DNA from: Chloroflexota bacterium
GTDB taxonomy: Bacteria > Chloroflexota > Dehalococcoidia > JACPPY01
NCBI GenBank assembly: GCA_016189825.1
Contig: JACPRR010000039.1
Span: 1-7,366 of the forward strand
Direction: 5' to 3'
Length of the DNA: 7,366 bases
Positions within the stretch are counted from its first letter, which is position 1. The number at the start of each line of letters is the position of its first letter. The position numbers and the translations under genes are program-made. The notes below the pieces were generated by a model that worked only from the letters and a program-made list of their open reading frames with translations, was not told where the DNA came from and made no database searches. Shown in pieces: positions 1 through 7,366 of this stretch.

Positions 1-1017
1 ATCCTGGAGTCACGAAAGCAGGGGAAAGACATTCTTTCCGTGATCATCGGGCAGGAGGAGGCGAAGGAGAAGATACTGGCCTCAGTGCTCTCCGGGCATC
101 ACCTGCTGATTGAGGGGCCTCCGGGGATCGGCAAGACAACGCTGACCAGGAATATCGCGTTCGCCTTGCCTCCGGTGAAGGCGGTGAAGGGCTGCCCCTA
201 CCATTGCGATCCGAGCGCGCCGGTCTGCCCGACGTGCAAGACCAAGGCGGAGGCCGGCGAGAAGCTGGAGGTCGAGGAAGTCAGCGGCCAGAAGCGGTTC
301 GTCCGGATACAGGGCTCGCCGGACCTGACGGCGGAAGACCTGCTGGGGGATATCGATCCGAGCATGGCCTTCAAGTATGGCCCGCAGGACTACCGCTCTT
401 TCACTCCGGGAAAGCTCCTCCGCGGCAACCGCGGCGTTGTATTCTTTGACGAAATCAACCGCGTGCCGGAGAAGCTGCAGAACGCGTTGCTCGAGGTGCT
501 CGAAGAGGGGATCGCGACCATTGGTCCCTACGACGTTGACTACCCGGCGAATTTCGTGATGATCGCAACGATGAACCCGAGGGAGCATGCCGGCGTGGAA
601 GAGCTTGCCGATGTCCTTCTGGACCGTTTCGACGTGGTCAAGATGACCTATCCGGAGACGGCAGAGAGGGAGACCGCAATCATAAAGCGGTACGGCATGA
701 AGTTCGAGGGTGTGACGATGCCGGAAGAAGTAGTGAGAACGATCGTCAAGCTGGTCCGGTCCACCCGGGAAGAGCCCTGGAGCAAGGAACTTGACCAGCC
801 GGCATCGGTCAGGGCCGGGCTTTCTCTCTATGAGAAGGTGCAGGCACTGGCGCTGCTCCGGGGTTCGAATGCCGCGGCTGTCGAGGACATCAAGCGAGTG
901 GCCACGTCCGCGCTGGGCAGCCGTGTGAAGCCGTCCCCGGAGTCGAAATACTACGACGATGCCTTCGGTTTCGTCGAGGAACTTACTGCGAAAGTATTGG
1001 AGGAGGTGGGGGCTTGA
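1..1017 (+). CDS. ChlI/MoxR-like AAA+ ATPase, putative metal-centre maturation motor (5' end cut by window)
   Basis: AAA+ ATPase of the magnesium-chelatase ChlI/MoxR type. Numbering from the first in-window start, GTG at 40: Walker A GPPGIGKTT 26-34, Walker B with intact D137-E138, sensor 1 N179 in ATMNP, candidate arginine finger R196 in LLDRFD, sensor-2-like R258 in SVRAGLSL. All ATPase residues therefore look functional. Four cysteines (C52, C56, C63, C66; CxxxCx6CxxC) follow Walker A and may bind a metal; similar cysteines occur in some archaeal-type ChlI homologues. The frame stays open to base 1, and the residues before the GTG (ILESRKQ-GKDIL) resemble the N-terminus of the ChlD-like protein at 3209 (ILKRLTSNGRDVI). 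I therefore infer that the true start lies upstream and give the CDS as 5' partial. It overlaps cooC by four bases (TTGA). Its likely partner is the AAA-VWA protein at 3209-5425. Its substrate is unknown; nickel delivery or remodelling of CODH/ACS is inferred from the neighbours. Confidence 0.88.
   Translation: MLESRKQGKDILSVIIGQEEAKEKILASVLSGHHLLIEGPPGIGKTTLTRNIAFALPPVKAVKGCPYHCDPSAPVCPTCKTKAEAGEKLEVEEVSGQKRFVRIQGSPDLTAEDLLGDIDPSMAFKYGPQDYRSFTPGKLLRGNRGVVFFDEINRVPEKLQNALLEVLEEGIATIGPYDVDYPANFVMIATMNPREHAGVEELADVLLDRFDVVKMTYPETAERETAIIKRYGMKFEGVTMPEEVVRTIVKLVRSTREEPWSKELDQPASVRAGLSLYEKVQALALLRGSNAAAVEDIKRVATSALGSRVKPSPESKYYDDAFGFVEELTAKVLEEVGA
999..1007 (+). promoter_or_regulatory. Ribosome binding site for cooC
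   Basis: GGAGGAGGT ends six bases before the TTG at 1014. It lies inside the end of the upstream ATPase gene and selects the TTG that overlaps the upstream TGA stop, so the two genes are probably translationally coupled. Confidence 0.8.
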
Positions 1018-1787
1018 GCGGGCTTGGCTTTACCGTCGCTGTGTCCGGGAAGGGTGGCGTGGGGAAGACGATGCTCTCGACCCTGATGATACGCTATTTC
1101 GCGAAGAAGGGTAGCACGCTGGCTATCGATGCCGACCCGGACTCGAATCTTCCCTGGGCATTGGGGGTGCCGGTGGTCAAGGATGTCGGGCATACGAGGG
1201 AAATGATAGCGCAGGCTCCGGCGCGCAGCGCCGTGGCCGGGGACAAGGCCTCCGCCTTTGAAAACGCGCTGCACGAAGTGGTCCAGGAGGCTGATGATTT
1301 CGACATCGTTGTCATGGGGCGCTCGGAGGGGGCGGGCTGTTACTGCGCCATCAACCACATTCTGCGGGACGTCATAGATGCCAGGGCGGCTAACTACGAC
1401 TACACGTTCATTGACACCGAGGCCGGCCTCGAGCACCTGAGCCGTCGCACCACGCGCGATGTCGATCTCATGGTGGTGGTCACGGAGCCCACGTTGAACG
1501 GCATACTCACTGCGAAGAGGGTGCATGACCTGGCGAAGGAAATTGACATCGGATTCGGCAGGATCATGGTCCTGGCCAACAAGGTCACCGACGAGACCAG
1601 GCCGATGGCGGAGAAGCTGGCGAGGGAATACGGGCTGAAGATCGATTTCTTCGTGCCATTCGATCCAGCGGTCGGCCTTCAGGACGCCATGGGGAAACCG
1701 ATGTACCAACTGGCGGAGGACTCGCCGGCGTCAAAGGCGGTCACGGAGTTTTGCGAGATCATCCAGAGCACGGTGCTGACGGCCTGA
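1014..1787 (+). CDS. cooC: CooC/AcsF-type ATPase for nickel insertion into CODH/ACS
   Basis: MinD/ParA-superfamily P-loop ATPase, 257 aa, the usual length for CooC. The deviant Walker A motif KGGVGKT is at residues 13-19, with its signature lysine K13. The IDADPDSNLPWALG stretch and the later FIDTEAGLEHLSRR segment are typical of CooC. The C109-Y-C111 motif (GAGCYCAINH) matches the CxC pair at which CooC dimers bind metal. CooC proteins use ATP-driven dimerisation to deliver nickel to the CODH C-cluster; the close relative AcsF does so for the ACS A-cluster. Sequence alone does not say which centre is served here, but cdhC begins 12 bases downstream and cdhA lies later in the same run. The start is TTG at 1014, chosen for the strong RBS and the four-base overlap with the ATPase gene. 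The gene ends in TGA, which here must be a true stop because the next gene has its own RBS and start. Confidence 0.92.
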   Translation: MSGLGFTVAVSGKGGVGKTMLSTLMIRYFAKKGSTLAIDADPDSNLPWALGVPVVKDVGHTREMIAQAPARSAVAGDKASAFENALHEVVQEADDFDIVVMGRSEGAGCYCAINHILRDVIDARAANYDYTFIDTEAGLEHLSRRTTRDVDLMVVVTEPTLNGILTAKRVHDLAKEIDIGFGRIMVLANKVTDETRPMAEKLAREYGLKIDFFVPFDPAVGLQDAMGKPMYQLAEDSPASKAVTEFCEIIQSTVLTA

Positions 1788-1799: not shown

Positions 1800-3203
1800 T
1801 TGGTTACCGGACAAATCAAACCATGGTACACGAGCGTTCGTATGCCGAAGGGCAGGGTGTTCCAGTTGGATACCGATCTGGACAATCTATACGCGGGTTT
1901 GGAGGACCTGGGCATCGGCCCGCGCTATGCCGGCGAGATACGCAAGGGACAGTGGTATGTGGAGCTTGGCGGACCGAAGCACCAGTACAAGTCATACCAG
2001 ACTATGGAGGTGATGAGGAGTCCCGAGGATGTTGTTGACGGGCGGGTCGAGATTGTCGGGCCGGAGCTGAACGAGATTCCGGTCGAAACCTCACTGCCGT
2101 TCTGCCTCCACGTAAGGGCCTGGGGCCCGGAGCTTCAGGAGGACCTCACCGAGTTCGTCGAGCGCGGGACCTTTCTGGCACTGCTGTTCATGGAAGGGTG
2201 GGGAATCGTCGGCGCAAGGGATATGATCTGGCTGCGCGTTTCCAAAGAAGTGGCGCCGAGGATGAGCTTCCTCAAGATGGCGCAGGCGATTCGCGCGAGC
2301 ACGATTTCGTTGTGCCCGATCGTAGAGAAGATGGAGATCAAGTGGGTGATAGCGACGCCGGAGGTGGGCGGGCGGGAGCTCATCGCGGCGATGATGGCGG
2401 AGATCAAGCCGAAATGGGAAGCGCTAGATGCGCGCACCAAGGGGTTGAGCGATGAAGAGGTGGATACTTTTTACGGCTGCACCATCTGCAAGATGATCGC
2501 GCCGAACCACGCCTGCATCATCACGCCAGGACTGGTGCCCTATTGCGGCATCCTTTCGTATTTCGCTGCCAAGGCCATGTACGCGGTAGACCCGTACGGA
2601 TATGTCTTCGAGGTGCCGCGCGGCCAGACCATCGACCTGGTGGCGGGAAGGTACACCGGCGTGGACGACACGATATGGGACAGGTCGGACCACAAACACA
2701 AGATATTCCACCTGCATAGTTGTATCAAGTACCCGACAACCAACTGAGGCTGATTCGAGGCAGTAGCCTACTACATCCCTCAGGTTGATGGGATAGGAAT
2801 CGCGGCCCGAAGGTATTTTGGCAATACTCCCCTGGGGATACCCTTCAGTAAACTGTGCGGCTTGATGAGCGGCGGGGTGCAGAACCACGGCTTCAAGGGT
2901 GTCTCGGTGGGCTCGATGCGCGAGCCCAAGTTCCTGCAAGGCGATGGGGGATGGGACCGCATCGTGTGGATGCCGAAAGACGTCAAGGCAGAGGTGGCCG
3001 ATTCAATACCGGAAGAGGTATACAGCAAGATAGCTACGGAGGAGGACTGCATCGATCCAGCAGACCTCGAAAAATGGCTGGCCGAGAAGAAACACCCGGT
3101 TGTGGACAAATACTGGAGAGATGGCAAGCCAGTCCCGCTGGAGGTGCCCCTGCCGAACCAACCGTGGCCTGATGAAATGCCTGTGGGGAGGGAGGAAGAT
3201 TAG
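1800..3203 (+). CDS. cdhC: Acetyl-CoA synthase beta subunit CdhC, candidate selenoprotein with Sec316-Gly317-Sec318
   Basis: Acetyl-CoA synthase subunit that joins CO, a corrinoid-bound methyl group and CoA at the Ni-Ni-Fe4S4 A-cluster. Reading through TGA at 2745 and 2751 gives 467 aa, the usual length of archaeal CdhC, which lacks the N-terminal CODH-binding region of clostridial AcsB. The Fe4S4 ligands are C227, C230, C239 and C249, with the same spacing as Moorella ACS (506, 509, 518, 528). The TGAs are codons 316 and 318, matching Cys595 and Cys597, which bind the distal nickel. Flanks on both sides are family sequence: KYPTTN before, and FEAVAYYIPQVDGIG, DGGWDRIVWMPK and EKKHPVV after. 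The frame does not change, so this is not a frameshift. Known for the family: Cys-Gly-Cys here is essentially invariant. Inferred: both TGAs encode selenocysteine. Alternatives are Cys insertion at UGA or a double-nonsense pseudogene. The gene ends in TAG, five bases before the next gene. Confidence 0.9.
2745..2747 (+). other. In-frame TGA, proposed selenocysteine codon 316
   Basis: In-frame TGA at the position of the first cysteine of the A-cluster Cys-Gly-Cys motif, 67 residues after C249. The frame before it ends in YPTTN, where Moorella ACS has YPHTS from memory. The loop of the downstream stem-loop begins 34 bases after this codon. Confidence 0.8.
2751..2753 (+). other. In-frame TGA, proposed selenocysteine codon 318
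   Basis: Second in-frame TGA, one glycine codon (GGC) after the first, at the position of the second cysteine of the motif. FEAVAYYIPQVDGIG follows at once in the same frame, matching conserved ACS sequence. The loop of the stem-loop begins 28 bases after this codon. Confidence 0.8.
2767..2797 (+). promoter_or_regulatory. SECIS-like stem-loop downstream of the double TGA
   Basis: Paired by eye. Upper stem: 2775-2779 (ATCCC) with 2790-2794 (GGGAT), a bulged U at 2789, then U2780-A2788 and C2781-G2787. The five-base apical loop is AGGUU (2782-2786). An outer stem of CCU (2767-2769) with AGG (2795-2797) can form across a 5' internal loop. Bacterial SECIS elements lie within the coding region shortly after UGA, with a short upper stem and a G in the first two loop bases; E. 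coli fdhF has GGUC in its loop and a bulged U, though on the other strand. The loop lies within the distance from either TGA that is usual for bacterial SECIS elements. The protein sequence here is itself conserved, so some pairing could be chance. Confidence 0.6.
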
Positions 3204-3208: not shown

Positions 3209-5425
3209 GTGCCAGTGGTAAAGGATGAAATCCTCAAGAGGCTGACTTCGAACGGGCGGGACGTAATCGAAGGGTTGTTCAGCGGTCTTGAGGTCGGCAG
3301 CAACGACGTAGAGGAAATACTCAGCACGCTGGTGACGGGGCACCATCTCCTCATACTCGGGCCTCCCGGGTCGGGGAAGACCGCTGTGGCCAACCGGCTG
3401 GGCACCCTGCTGGGCGACATCGAAGTCGTCGAGGGCTGTCCGGTGAACTGCGCGCCCGGGGATGCTTACTGCCCCTGGTGTCTGGAGCGAAAGCGCAACG
3501 GCGAGCCGTTGAAGACAGTAGTTGTCAGGGGCTCCGACCGTTTGAAGAAGATCCAGGGCGGCAGCGAGGTCACGCCAGAGGACATGGTGGGCTCGATCGA
3601 CCCCGAATCGGCGCTGGCTCATGGCATCCACTCGGTGTCTGCTTTTTCACCCGGGAAACTGCTCAGGGCAAACAAGGGCGTCCTTGTAGTCGACTTCATC
3701 GACCGCATGCCGGAAAGAGCGCTCAACACGCTGCTCTATGCGCTCGAAGGTGGCCGGGTCAACCTCGGCGCCTACGACGAGCAGTTGGACCTGGACATCC
3801 TGGTCGTAGCCACTGGCAGTCCTAAGATGCTCGAGTTTCTTCCCCTTGGCGTCCTGGAGTACTTCGATATCGTGACCCTTGGCTATGTGGACGATCCCGC
3901 TGTCGAGACCAGGATCGACCATGACAACCTGGAGAGAAGGCCGGCAGGTCAGATGCTGGACGACATAACGCTTGCCAGGGCGGTCGAGATAGCGAATCTC
4001 ACCAGGTCGCACAGCGAAATCGAGCGAGGAATCAGCACCAGGGGTTCGATGCGCTACACTGAGCTTCTGGCGTCCATGCAGGAAATGGGCGTTGGCGGCC
4101 GTGAGGAGATGCTGCGCGGCGCCGCGTTTTCCACGTTGCCTCACCGGCTTCAGCTCGCCCCTCATGCTGACCTCCCCGGCAAACGGGACCAGGTTATCCA
4201 GGAAATACTGGACGAGGTGCTTGGAGGCAAACAGAAGGTCGAGACGCTTGATTTTTCCCGGGACGACCTGATGAGCCTGGTGGAAGAAATCGCCAGGGAA
4301 GACAAGTTCCGCAAGCCGCTCAAGTACGGGGCGTTCGACATCCTTTTGAAGCGCGTGCAGCGCTTCCCGGAATCGAAGCTGGCGGAGATGGTCCGGGCAA
4401 TGAGCTCCCGTATGGAGGAGCTGTACCCAGATCGGTACCGGAAAGACAACGTGACTGAAGAGCTCCTGATGGATATCGAGGAAAGCCGCAAACGCGAGGA
4501 GCGGATAACGAAGCTCAGGAAAGCAATGGAGCTGGACGCTCTGAGCCAGACAATCGGCTATCTGGAACAGCACAAGATACTGGAAAAAGGCAAACAGGGG
4601 TGGGAATTGAGCCGCAAGGGGCTTTCGTTGCTGCTCGAACGGCTTACCCCGAAGCTGGTAACCAGCTCAGTCTATGGATATGGCAAACACACCACAGGCA
4701 AGAAGCTTTCCATTGGCATCGGCCGGGAGGTCGGCATCCGGCATTTCCGTTTTGGCGACAAGTACAAGGATGTAACCGTCAAGAACTCCATCCGAGAGGC
4801 CATCCGCAATCACCGCAACCAGGTGACCAAGGATGACATCATGGTCGTGACCAGGGATGTGCGGACCAGCATGGATGTGATACTGGTCGTTGATCTGTCC
4901 GGAACAATGAGGCAACTTGAGAAACTGTGGCACGCCAAGGAGTGCTCCATTGCGCTTTCGCTGGCGGCCTCGCAGTTCAAGGACCGGGTTGGCGTTGTCT
5001 CTTTCTCCAACATGGCGGACGTCGTAGTCGACATCACCGCGAATCCCTACCGCCTGACACGGCGGGTCATCGACCTCGAGCTGCATCCCAACTCGTTCAC
5101 CAACATCGGGTACGGTATATTGAAGGCGATGCAACTCTTCAGCTATCACCGGCGCAGCAAGGCGTCCCAGCACATGATCGTGATATCGGACGGCGACGCC
5201 ACCGCGCCCCATCCCTCTCCCAAGAAGTATGCACTCAGGCAGGCGACCAGGGCAGCGAAGAAAGGCATCACGATCTCGACGATCTGCATCAACGAGGAGT
5301 CGGCAGACCCGGAGCTGATGCGGCGCATTGCCAGGATCGGAAAGGGCAGGATCTACTACATCGGCGAGGAAGCGTTAACCGCGGCAATCCTGGAGGAGAG
5401 GATGGCGGCGAAGGCTACCTTGTAG
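3209..5425 (+). CDS. ChlD-like protein: degenerate AAA+ domain plus VWA (MIDAS) domain
   Basis: 738-aa two-domain protein built like the magnesium-chelatase D subunit. The N-terminal AAA+ domain keeps Walker A (GPPGSGKT, 51-58) but has lost key catalytic residues: Walker B reads VVDFID with F163 in place of the catalytic Glu, sensor 1 Asn is S204 (ATGSP), and the arginine-finger position is Y218 (LEYFD, against LDRFD in the upstream ATPase). It shares the CxxxCx6CxxC insert (C77, C81, C88, C91) with that ATPase. A charged region (about 390-440) and a winged-helix-like stretch (HKILEK, then GWELSRKGL) lead to a C-terminal VWA domain with MIDAS residues D562-x-S564-x-T566, T631 and D661. In Mg-chelatase and in CoxD/CoxE, NorQ/NorD and CbbQ/CbbO pairs, such a protein links an active AAA+ ring to a metal-enzyme target. 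By position the target here is CODH/ACS (inference). The start may be GTG 3209 or 3215. The stop is TAG. Confidence 0.88.
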   Translation: MPVVKDEILKRLTSNGRDVIEGLFSGLEVGSNDVEEILSTLVTGHHLLILGPPGSGKTAVANRLGTLLGDIEVVEGCPVNCAPGDAYCPWCLERKRNGEPLKTVVVRGSDRLKKIQGGSEVTPEDMVGSIDPESALAHGIHSVSAFSPGKLLRANKGVLVVDFIDRMPERALNTLLYALEGGRVNLGAYDEQLDLDILVVATGSPKMLEFLPLGVLEYFDIVTLGYVDDPAVETRIDHDNLERRPAGQMLDDITLARAVEIANLTRSHSEIERGISTRGSMRYTELLASMQEMGVGGREEMLRGAAFSTLPHRLQLAPHADLPGKRDQVIQEILDEVLGGKQKVETLDFSRDDLMSLVEEIAREDKFRKPLKYGAFDILLKRVQRFPESKLAEMVRAMSSRMEELYPDRYRKDNVTEELLMDIEESRKREERITKLRKAMELDALSQTIGYLEQHKILEKGKQGWELSRKGLSLLLERLTPKLVTSSVYGYGKHTTGKKLSIGIGREVGIRHFRFGDKYKDVTVKNSIREAIRNHRNQVTKDDIMVVTRDVRTSMDVILVVDLSGTMRQLEKLWHAKECSIALSLAASQFKDRVGVVSFSNMADVVVDITANPYRLTRRVIDLELHPNSFTNIGYGILKAMQLFSYHRRSKASQHMIVISDGDATAPHPSPKKYALRQATRAAKKGITISTICINEESADPELMRRIARIGKGRIYYIGEEALTAAILEERMAAKATL

Positions 5426-5437: not shown

Positions 5438-5665
5438 ATGGGTACCGAGACCGGGATCTGCGGCGTTTGCGCCAGGAACGAGGCCGCGCGGGAGTGCAGC
5501 GAGTGCGGCATCCCGCTCTGCGATATCTGCGCGAAGGAAGTGCTCCTGCAGGATGTGAGCCCTGGCTCGATGGTGAAACCGGGGGTTTCCACTTCCCCCC
5601 TGCGGGCGGGGTCCAGGAAGAAGAAGGTCTGTCCGAAGTGCATGGAAGAAGCCGACTTCATGTAA
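5438..5665 (+). CDS. Small protein with four CxxC pairs, probable zinc-binding or metallochaperone-like
   Basis: 75-aa protein with eight cysteines in four CxxC pairs: C8/C11, C20/C23, C28/C31 and C65/C68. The first three form a compact N-terminal cluster (CGVC, CSEC, CDIC) resembling a treble-clef or B-box-type zinc-binding fold. The last lies in a basic C-terminal segment (SRKKKVCPKC). Between them is a low-complexity linker rich in Gly, Ser and Pro. There is no signal peptide or membrane segment, so it is cytoplasmic. I do not recognise a named family. It begins 12 bases after the ChlD-like gene with a good RBS and ATG, and ends in TAA before a 70-base gap and cdhA. Its place in the run suggests a role in CODH/ACS maturation, such as metal or cluster handling or an adaptor to the AAA-VWA motor; this is inference only. 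The RBS and even cysteine pattern argue that it is a real gene. Confidence 0.75.
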   Translation: MGTETGICGVCARNEAARECSECGIPLCDICAKEVLLQDVSPGSMVKPGVSTSPLRAGSRKKKVCPKCMEEADFM

Positions 5666-5735: not shown

Positions 5736-7366
5736 ATGCCGGCGAAACAGTCGGTCCGTCTGGGATCGACGGAGGTGGAGGTCGATTCCCTGGTCCGAGA
5801 CTCTCGAGGCGTTTCCGGTATCATCGCCGATGACCTCGATGCGGACTTCCAGGAGGCGAGGCTAAAGAATTTCAACCAGAGGCTGTTCCCGTTCGCGGAC
5901 GCTACAGATATTGCGGAATGGGACGGCTACCTGGTGTCTCGCTTCGCCCCCCTCTACCTGAGTTTCGATGCTACATGCAGCGATTGCCCGCTGGGTCCGT
6001 GCAATCTGAAGAACGCAGTGGGCCAGTGCGGGCTGAGCGGCGCGGGCTACCAGGCAAGGCTGAGTCTGCGGCGGACCTGCCGGGGCTGTGTGAGCCAGAT
6101 GGCGGACAGCCGGGACATCATGGAGCACGCGAGCAAGGTCTTCGGGGATGATGCAACCATCGTGTGGGGGAAGCACCATGACCGCAGCGACGCCAGCCAC
6201 ATCGGGCTGCTGACGGCGATGTGGCCGCGGACGGTGGGCGACCTGCGAAGGGCAATGGAGTACGCCGAGGCGCAGTTGGGCAAGATGTTCCTGGGCAGCT
6301 TCACCGGATACGATGCGCTCGAACTGGAACGGATGGCCCTTCATGCCGGGAGCATACTCATCGTGTCAATGGATGTGGCGGAACTGCTTAAGGCGAATTT
6401 CTTTGGCTTCCGTAACGCCTCGGACCACGAGCTGACCGATCTGGCTAACTGGCCACCGGCGAATGTGCTGGGCGGATTGGGCAATGTCCTGCCTGGCAAG
6501 CCCGTGCTGACCTTCATGGGAGATAGCTTTCTGACCGCCTGGTACGCGGTGAGGAAACTGCGTGACGAGCGCATCGCGGACAAGGTCGAGGTGTGCGGTA
6601 TCGGATCTGTCGGCCACGATATCATCAGGTTCTATGATGGAGCGCGCGTCCTCGGTCCGATGACGATGAGCAACAAGCTGGTCCGGTTCGGCATTAGCGA
6701 CGTCATTGTCGCAAGCACGGCTTGCATCAATTGGGATTTCAAGGACAGCGCAGCGCGGGCGGGCTCCCGTATCATCTGGACCGGCAAAGAGGGCAACCTC
6801 GGGCTGCCGGACCGCATTGATGATCCTATTGACGCTATCGTGGATGACCTGGTTGCCGGCGCTCCGGGGGCCTGGGTCAGGGATGTCGAGAAGGCGGCCG
6901 AGATCGCGGTGCGGGTATCGCTGGCGGTGAGGCGCAAGCGAGCTGCGTTCCTGACTGACGGGCAGGCGAAGGCAGAGGCCGGGAGATGTGACGAGGACTG
7001 CGACCTGTGCTCAGCCGCATGTCCCAACGGGCTGCTGGTCGGTCAAGCGCTGCGCAAAGCGAAGACGGGAGGACTGAGCGCCCTGTCCCCCATCGAGGAA
7101 GGCTGCTATTCCTGCGGTCGTTGCGAGAGCGTCTGCCCGCAGCGGGTGAAATTGAACGATTTGTTAATGGCGTCGCTGTCGGCCAGGGCCCCGGAAGACA
7201 ATCTCACGAAGAGGGCTGGCCGCGGTCCGGTTTCTCGTATCGAGACCACAGGCTGGGCCTTCGGTTCTCTGATGGGGAATTGCCCCGGCATCTTCCATAT
7301 CCTGGGATGCGGGGATGCAAAACGAAGGGCAGACCTGGGGTGGATCGCCTACGAGCTGACATGGCG
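5736..7366 (+). CDS. cdhA: CODH/ACS alpha subunit CdhA, nickel CO dehydrogenase (3' end beyond window)
   Basis: Catalytic subunit of the archaeal-type CO dehydrogenase, which interconverts CO2 and CO at a Ni-Fe-S C-cluster. The frame is open from ATG 5736 to the window end, giving 543 residues with no in-frame stop. Full CdhA is near 800 aa, so about two thirds is present. The N-terminal cysteines C81, C84, C89, C98 (CSDCPLGPC, then CGL) and C115/C118 (TCRGCVSQ) fit the D and B cluster ligands. GKHHDRSDASHIG, ANWPPANVLGG, CGIGSVGHDIIRFYD and STACINWDF are CdhA-like blocks. Two ferredoxin-type motifs follow: C418, C422, C425, C429 and C457, C460, C463, C467. These are the E and F clusters that distinguish the archaeal alpha subunit from bacterial CooS/AcsA. 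The last visible stretch, TTGWAFGSLMGNCPGIFHILGCGD, belongs to the catalytic region. Unlike cdhC, no TGA replaces a cysteine here. The 70-base upstream gap makes this the least tightly coupled gene of the run; the epsilon subunit CdhB may follow outside the window. Confidence 0.93.
   Translation, partial: MPAKQSVRLGSTEVEVDSLVRDSRGVSGIIADDLDADFQEARLKNFNQRLFPFADATDIAEWDGYLVSRFAPLYLSFDATCSDCPLGPCNLKNAVGQCGLSGAGYQARLSLRRTCRGCVSQMADSRDIMEHASKVFGDDATIVWGKHHDRSDASHIGLLTAMWPRTVGDLRRAMEYAEAQLGKMFLGSFTGYDALELERMALHAGSILIVSMDVAELLKANFFGFRNASDHELTDLANWPPANVLGGLGNVLPGKPVLTFMGDSFLTAWYAVRKLRDERIADKVEVCGIGSVGHDIIRFYDGARVLGPMTMSNKLVRFGISDVIVASTACINWDFKDSAARAGSRIIWTGKEGNLGLPDRIDDPIDAIVDDLVAGAPGAWVRDVEKAAEIAVRVSLAVRRKRAAFLTDGQAKAEAGRCDEDCDLCSAACPNGLLVGQALRKAKTGGLSALSPIEEGCYSCGRCESVCPQRVKLNDLLMASLSARAPEDNLTKRAGRGPVSRIETTGWAFGSLMGNCPGIFHILGCGDAKRRADLGWIAYELTW

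Follow-up and report, generated by a model that had tools for sequence, protein, structure and literature searches.

The cdhC gene described here very probably encodes a selenocysteine (Sec) form of acetyl-CoA synthase (ACS), the C–C bond-forming enzyme of the Wood–Ljungdahl pathway and a textbook nickel enzyme, with Sec-Gly-Sec predicted to replace both nickel-binding cysteines. Sec appears by far the best reading of its two internal UGA codons, because this one codon recurs in diverged genes, is placed exactly on the nickel ligands and interchanges with Cys on a gene tree, and because a genome of another family with such a gene (G137) carries Sec machinery. The gene is the third of six in the window, the whole stretch of 7,366 nucleotides analysed, which open reading frames and profile matches identify as a CODH/ACS gene cluster. 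Its features are:

1-1017, plus strand: AAA+ ATPase, Mg-chelatase/MoxR-like, with a cysteine-rich insert; 5′ end open, TGA end.
1014-1787, plus strand: MinD/ParA-like P-loop ATPase; TGA end.
1800-3203, plus strand: cdhC/acsB-type acetyl-CoA synthase beta subunit; 467 amino acids with both UGA codons read through, TTG start, TAG stop.
2478-2546, plus strand: codons of the four A-cluster Fe4S4 cysteines (residues 227, 230, 239 and 249), all Cys.
2745-2747, plus strand: UGA, residue 316, first nickel ligand; aligns with residue 278 of 9c0s_E.
2751-2753, plus strand: UGA, residue 318, second nickel ligand; aligns with residue 280 of 9c0s_E.
2775-2794, plus strand: candidate bacterial SECIS hairpin, AUCCCUCA-GGU-UGA-U-GGGAU; the same 20 nt occur in G137 and in the Cys-type relative L005.
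3209-5425, plus strand: AAA + VWA chelatase-like protein; a 61% identical counterpart adjoins the Sec-type cdhC of G137.
5438-5665, plus strand: small Cys-rich protein; a 43% identical counterpart lies between cdhC and cdhA at the paralogue on contig C98.
5736-7366, plus strand: divergent CdhA-like CODH subunit, truncated by the window end.

The cdhC gene occupies a single frame whose only internal TGA codons lie at 2745-2753, as TGA-GGC-TGA, and which ends in TAG. Each half matches PF19436 (E = 3.6e-25 and 2.6e-26) and likewise the cdhC models, scoring 185.3 and 164.5 bits apart against the NCBIfam cdhC equivalog (cut-off 355.95 bits). Read through, the window product reaches 381.0 bits, and the products of the G137 gene and the C98 paralogue reach 369.1 and 379.2 bits, so that all pass. 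Frame and profile matches thus bear out the initial annotation, which had described two stops in an otherwise continuous gene with both halves resembling CdhC/ACS. In Pfam, the read-through product matches PF03598 (CdhC) with 77.2 bits and PF19436 (ACS_CODH_B_C) with 212.7 bits, the cut-offs being 24 and 25. An AlphaFold model of the read-through protein, with Cys for Sec, has a mean pLDDT of 92.3, and ACS chains account for 28 of its 28 PDB matches with E <= 0.001. An Rfam search over the whole window returned no match.

At the codon level the Cys-Gly-Cys nickel site is absent, and only with read-through of both UGA codons is the product an ACS. The UGA residues were mapped by phmmer alignment to the Methanosarcina ACS chain 9c0s_E, and the 467-residue product, whose alignment with CdhC/AcsB the initial annotation had suggested, passes the family cut-off and places its UGA codons on residues 278 and 280. 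The first of them, residue 316, corresponds to Cys595 in the Moorella numbering given by the initial annotation. The two thiolates of the proximal nickel also bind the distal nickel in ACS. In the 9c0s structure, as given in passages of PMC11474084, the proximal nickel has Cys278 and Cys280 as its two thiol ligands, and the distal nickel is ligated by the backbone nitrogen of a glycine. The earlier statement that both TGA codons fall on the nickel ligands and nowhere else agrees with this alignment: 36 of the 467 codons of cdhC are one step from TGA, and the two that are TGA encode the two nickel ligands. The Fe4S4 cysteines C227, C230, C239 and C249 are invariant in a 60-row alignment, and their spacing is as first reported (+3, +9, +10, then +67 from residue 249 to UGA residue 316). 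The remaining nine cysteines of cdhC are encoded by TGC or TGT; UGA is therefore restricted to the two nickel ligands. Two neighbour genes end in TGA (at 1017 and 1787), so UGA is also an ordinary stop here, and genome-wide recoding of UGA is ruled out by these two ends.

The same codon recurs in a paralogue and in another family. The window's own genome (G000) is a single draft bin of 282 contigs and 62.3% completeness, and its second cdhC, on contig C98, is 50% identical to that of the window, has TGA-GGG-TGC at the same site and ends in TAG. Downstream of it lie a small Cys-rich protein and a cdhA-like gene, with 43% and 35% identity to their counterparts in the window. G137, a genome of another family that is 95% complete, has on contig C111 a cdhC with TGA-GGT-TGA at the same site and a TAA end; its read-through protein is 56% identical to the window's (the genes 60%), and behind it on the contig come an AAA+VWA gene and a CdhA piece that share 61% and 45% identity, respectively, with those of the window. 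The initial reading of the site as Sec-Gly-Sec accordingly holds for the codon pattern of the window and G137 (TGA-GGN-TGA) and not for the C98 paralogue, whose motif is predicted to be Sec-Gly-Cys.

Sec-type cdhC is rare among sequenced genomes. A pattern scan matched in 2 of 393 genomes of the class (both genes of the own genome; G137:C111), with no match to the reversed control pattern in the same 393, and a similar pattern matched in 1 of 400 genomes of the phylum, an overlapping set, namely the own genome. Among the 15 genomes of G137's order the TGA pattern occurs in G137 only, and a viral collection gave no match to it. A protein search of 100 relatives yielded 46 with an ACS match, and TGA lay within the match for both own genes and for G035; the G035:C3 TGA is at the end of the match, off the site, which itself reads CGC. 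All ten relatives inspected at the DNA level have TGY-GGN-TGY. The own genome also holds a third, partial ACS-like match (G000:C231:3647-3982, 38.5 bits), the nickel site of which lies beyond the contig.

Several features of the surrounding genes may be recorded here. The chelatase/MoxR-like AAA, MinD/ParA-like ATPase and AAA+VWA proteins that flank cdhC carry cysteine-rich inserts (in the window and at L069:1206-3416) and may serve to load nickel or the A-cluster. The ATPase at 1014-1787, to which we presumptively give the label CooC, is possibly a CooC-type nickel-insertion ATPase. A small Cys-rich, zinc-finger-like protein is present at both Sec-type cdhC loci of the own genome (5438-5665 in the window and L045:6809-7021, 43% identical); the window copy has no Pfam or NCBIfam match, and the protein is possibly a partner or maturation factor of the cdhC product. 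The cdhA-like genes of the two loci (window 5736-7366; L045:7108-9264) each score about 280 bits versus a cdhA cut-off of 781, and both are predicted to be divergent CODH subunits. An N-terminal cysteine-rich stretch is present in the window cdhA and absent from the C98 cdhA, where the alignment has a gap.

A search for the Sec machinery in the same genome, proposed in the initial annotation, was answered in part. The own bin contains the N-terminal half of SelA at the end of contig C184 (279 bits; equivalog cut-off 267.9), and SelB, SelD and tRNA-Sec were not found in this bin of 62% completeness. Four weak tRNA-Sec candidates (38-41 bits) were assigned by ARAGORN to three tRNA-Ser and one tRNA-Tyr; five SelB candidates were all under the cut-off, the best of them adjoining tRNA genes and, by its place and length, looking like EF-Tu; and a single SelD candidate, at 66 bits, was below the cut-off of 125. 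SelD scored above the cut-off in 35 of the 60 genomes searched, including G001, the sole same-family genome of that set. UGA was found in neither of the own genome's two molybdopterin oxidoreductases. In G137, SelB (352 bits; cut-off 242) directly adjoins a tRNA-Sec with the anticodon UCA (76 bits), and a formate-dehydrogenase-like gene has an in-frame UGA in a UHAP motif. Two more tRNA-Sec matches in this genome, which narrowly exceed the Rfam cut-off at 50.5 and 48.3 bits, are tRNA-Ser. SelA was not found in the 95% complete G137 assembly, although SelB, tRNA-Sec and this UGA-containing gene are present (L080, L088).

The alternative that survives best is that a near-cognate or altered tRNA decodes UGA as cysteine or some other standard residue, yielding an ordinary Cys-Gly-Cys ACS. 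We regard this as improbable. It is in keeping with SelB and tRNA-Sec not being found in the 62% complete own genome and SelA not being found in G137, but it has to contend with the TGA ends of two neighbour genes and with the confinement of UGA to the two nickel ligands while the other nine cysteines are TGC or TGT. Half a SelA in the own genome, together with SelB, tRNA-Sec and the UGA-containing formate-dehydrogenase-like gene of G137, likewise argues against such a tRNA and for Sec.

The sequence after the UGA has evolved under constraint. Compared with L005, G137, C98 and L006, pS in this part of the window gene is saturated (0.75-0.78), and pN is 0.15, 0.22, 0.26 and 0.21, respectively, being lower after the UGA than before it in four of four comparisons. 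Low pN versus saturated pS indicates that the downstream part is very likely translated and needed. Database records point to the same site. Three protein searches, taking the best 120 of 2263, 432 and 688, gave 182 distinct proteins, and among these listed homologues the site reads Cys-Gly-Cys in 155, and the other 27 (308-318 amino acids) stop exactly one residue before the first nickel Cys, at ...TN or ...SN; alignment of the 182 to the window revealed no third class. From these protein records, we infer that the stop of the 27 short proteins is UGA.

Less probable still is that two nonsense codons arose by chance in a pseudogene or through an assembly error. The origin of the window in a single draft bin of 282 contigs and 62% completeness would allow for it, but the same codon, TGA, stands in a paralogue of 50% identity and in a second genome, 27 of the 182 listed homologues stop at this site and none elsewhere near it, and pN is low after the UGA versus a saturated pS. 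The recurrence and the 27 truncated records also sustain the earlier judgement that two random nonsense mutations at these codons were very unlikely. It is hardly credible that translation ends at codon 316 and that the halves function as separate chains: a piece of 308-318 amino acids is indeed recorded as a protein in 27 of the 182 listed homologues, but both nickel ligands would be lost at the break, the part after the UGA is conserved, and the next in-frame start is a TTG at 2862, 36 codons on, so that the intervening stretch would be lost as well. Just as little can be said for a selenium-dependent switch, in which a full-length Sec enzyme is made with selenium and a truncated, inactive piece without it, regulation being the point: the second cdhC of the own genome, with one UGA and hence one Sec event versus two, would suit it, but no intact Cys-type ACS was found among the own genome's three matches, of which the one on C231 runs off its contig short of the site and so could be Cys-type.

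The Sec interpretation is thus supported by the recurrence of UGA in the paralogue and in another family, by the conserved downstream sequence and by the SelB and tRNA-Sec of G137. On a FastTree phylogeny of 148 rows (30 Sec-type, 118 Cys-type), which drew a program warning that the long branches of G137 and P0013 meet, at least eight changes of type are required, six of them forced by well-supported branches; shuffles needed a mean of 27.8 changes, and none of 500 was as low as the observed eight. For this tree, 8 of the 182 proteins were left out for want of a recognised motif and 3 for exceeding 600 amino acids, and 37 Cys-type rows numbered above P0128 were removed from 185 to leave the 148. 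The C98 clade comprises 12 rows and is Sec-type throughout. The Cys-type L005 lies inside a group of Sec-type rows. This copy (L005:6001-7359), from a MAG labelled Syntrophaceae, keeps the candidate SECIS; its nesting among Sec types and the retained element fit a recent Sec-to-Cys change, and its place in that MAG reflects either gene transfer or mis-binning.

The hairpin at 2775-2794 is a candidate SECIS. The bacterial model described in parts of PMC13188914 has a loop of 3-9 nt with G in the first two loop bases, a stem of 4-16 bp, a distance of 16-37 nt from the UGA to the loop and an energy of at most -7.5 kcal/mol. The GGU loop of the window lies 29 nt past the second UGA and 35 nt past the first, and the best segment has an energy of -9.1, the core alone -6.5 to -7.3. 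The window gene conforms to the model at both distances, and the G137 and C98 genes do not. Conformity was found in one of the three real Sec-type genes (the window's) and in 4 of 11 Cys-type genes, and, under synonymous shuffling, in 29 of 60 versions of the window gene and in 20 of 60 versions of the G137 gene; the structure alone is no better than that of shuffles and is weak on its own. The C98 gene is without the shared element, and its own predicted hairpin has a loop 42 nt from the UGA, outside the published range.

Conservation is the better evidence. Between the window and G137 genes, at 60% identity and with saturated synonymous sites, no exact match is longer than the 20 nt ATCCCTCAGGTTGATGGGAT. 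In other parts of the gene the window also shares exact stretches of 20-21 nt with C98, L006 and L009, and the identity with G137 is therefore supportive and not proof. In codon-run permutations (L014, whose frame ran on, was excluded), the run shared at the hairpin by the window, G137 and L005 was reached in 242 of 20000 and that shared by the window and L005 in 336, and the run of the window and G137 alone was ordinary (9892 of 20000). The longest codon run common to the window, G137 and C98 is located at the Fe4S4 cysteines (618 of 20000), not at the hairpin.

We propose that SelB would deliver Sec-tRNA(Sec) at both UGA codons, guided by an RNA element just downstream, for which the GGU-loop hairpin at 2775-2794 is the best candidate, with the published spacing satisfied for both UGA codons. 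Both Sec side chains would be ligands of the distal nickel and link it to the proximal, catalytic one, and the four Fe4S4 cysteines would remain Cys. The UGA codons, their position and recurrence and the constraint on the downstream part are observed; Sec insertion, the SECIS and the Ni-Se cluster we infer. The gain, by analogy with [NiFeSe] hydrogenase, would likely be a more nucleophilic nickel site and easier recovery from oxidation. For the group as a whole, we consider it probable that a family of ACS in uncultured anaerobes has a selenium-bridged dinickel site with a Ni2Se2-type core, formed by Sec-Gly-Sec or Sec-Gly-Cys, that one SECIS serves two UGA codons six bases apart, and that Sec was both gained and lost several times.

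Known CdhC/AcsB enzymes (PDB 9c0s, 1oao, 7zkj) share with the window product the family cut-off, the fold, the Fe4S4 cysteines and the nickel-ligand positions, whereas the window gene has UGA for both nickel-binding cysteines. In [NiFeSe] hydrogenase, Sec also replaces a nickel-ligand cysteine; according to passages of PMC13188914 and PMC7324405, Sec has been proposed to be a Ni ligand, and its advantage seems to be protection of the Ni from irreversible overoxidation. That enzyme differs in fold and reaction, and the ACS would have two Sec two residues apart, expected to bridge two nickels. Sec formate dehydrogenase FdhA likewise has UGA for an active-site metal ligand and belongs to the same C1 pathway, and a UGA-containing relative is present in G137, but its single Sec is a Mo/W ligand in another family, as stated in parts of PMC13188914. 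The Sec form of HgcA, a corrinoid protein related to the CODH/ACS gamma subunit, is the sole CODH/ACS-related row in Table 1 of PMC13188914 and appears as CdhE in a portion of PMC9312934; it represents another subunit family, and its motif is CU, not the ACS nickel site. The same Table 1, a 2026 catalogue covering 119 families and subfamilies of prokaryotic selenoproteins, has no ACS beta subunit. This agrees with the initial annotation, which knew of no described selenoprotein form of ACS, the scope being open-access texts. The words acetyl-CoA, CO dehydrogenase and carbon monoxide are absent from the accessible main text of the deep-Sep paper (PMC12013277), and a Sec form of ACS is mentioned in none of the accessible parts of PMC9723677, PMC5736913, PMC8318568, PMC3971608, PMC11291895 and PMC13156950.

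If the Sec reading is true, the selenoproteins would gain a family in which two Sec, spaced two residues apart, bind metal, and a selenium-bridged site would be placed in one of the oldest carbon-fixing enzymes. Natural selenolates on both nickels would offer chemists a built-in label with which 77Se EPR/ENDOR and Se EXAFS could probe the debated mechanism of the A-cluster. Gene prediction would, moreover, halve this enzyme in some uncultured anaerobes, as in 27 of the 182 listed homologues, so that the carbon-fixing capacity of those organisms would be under-counted.
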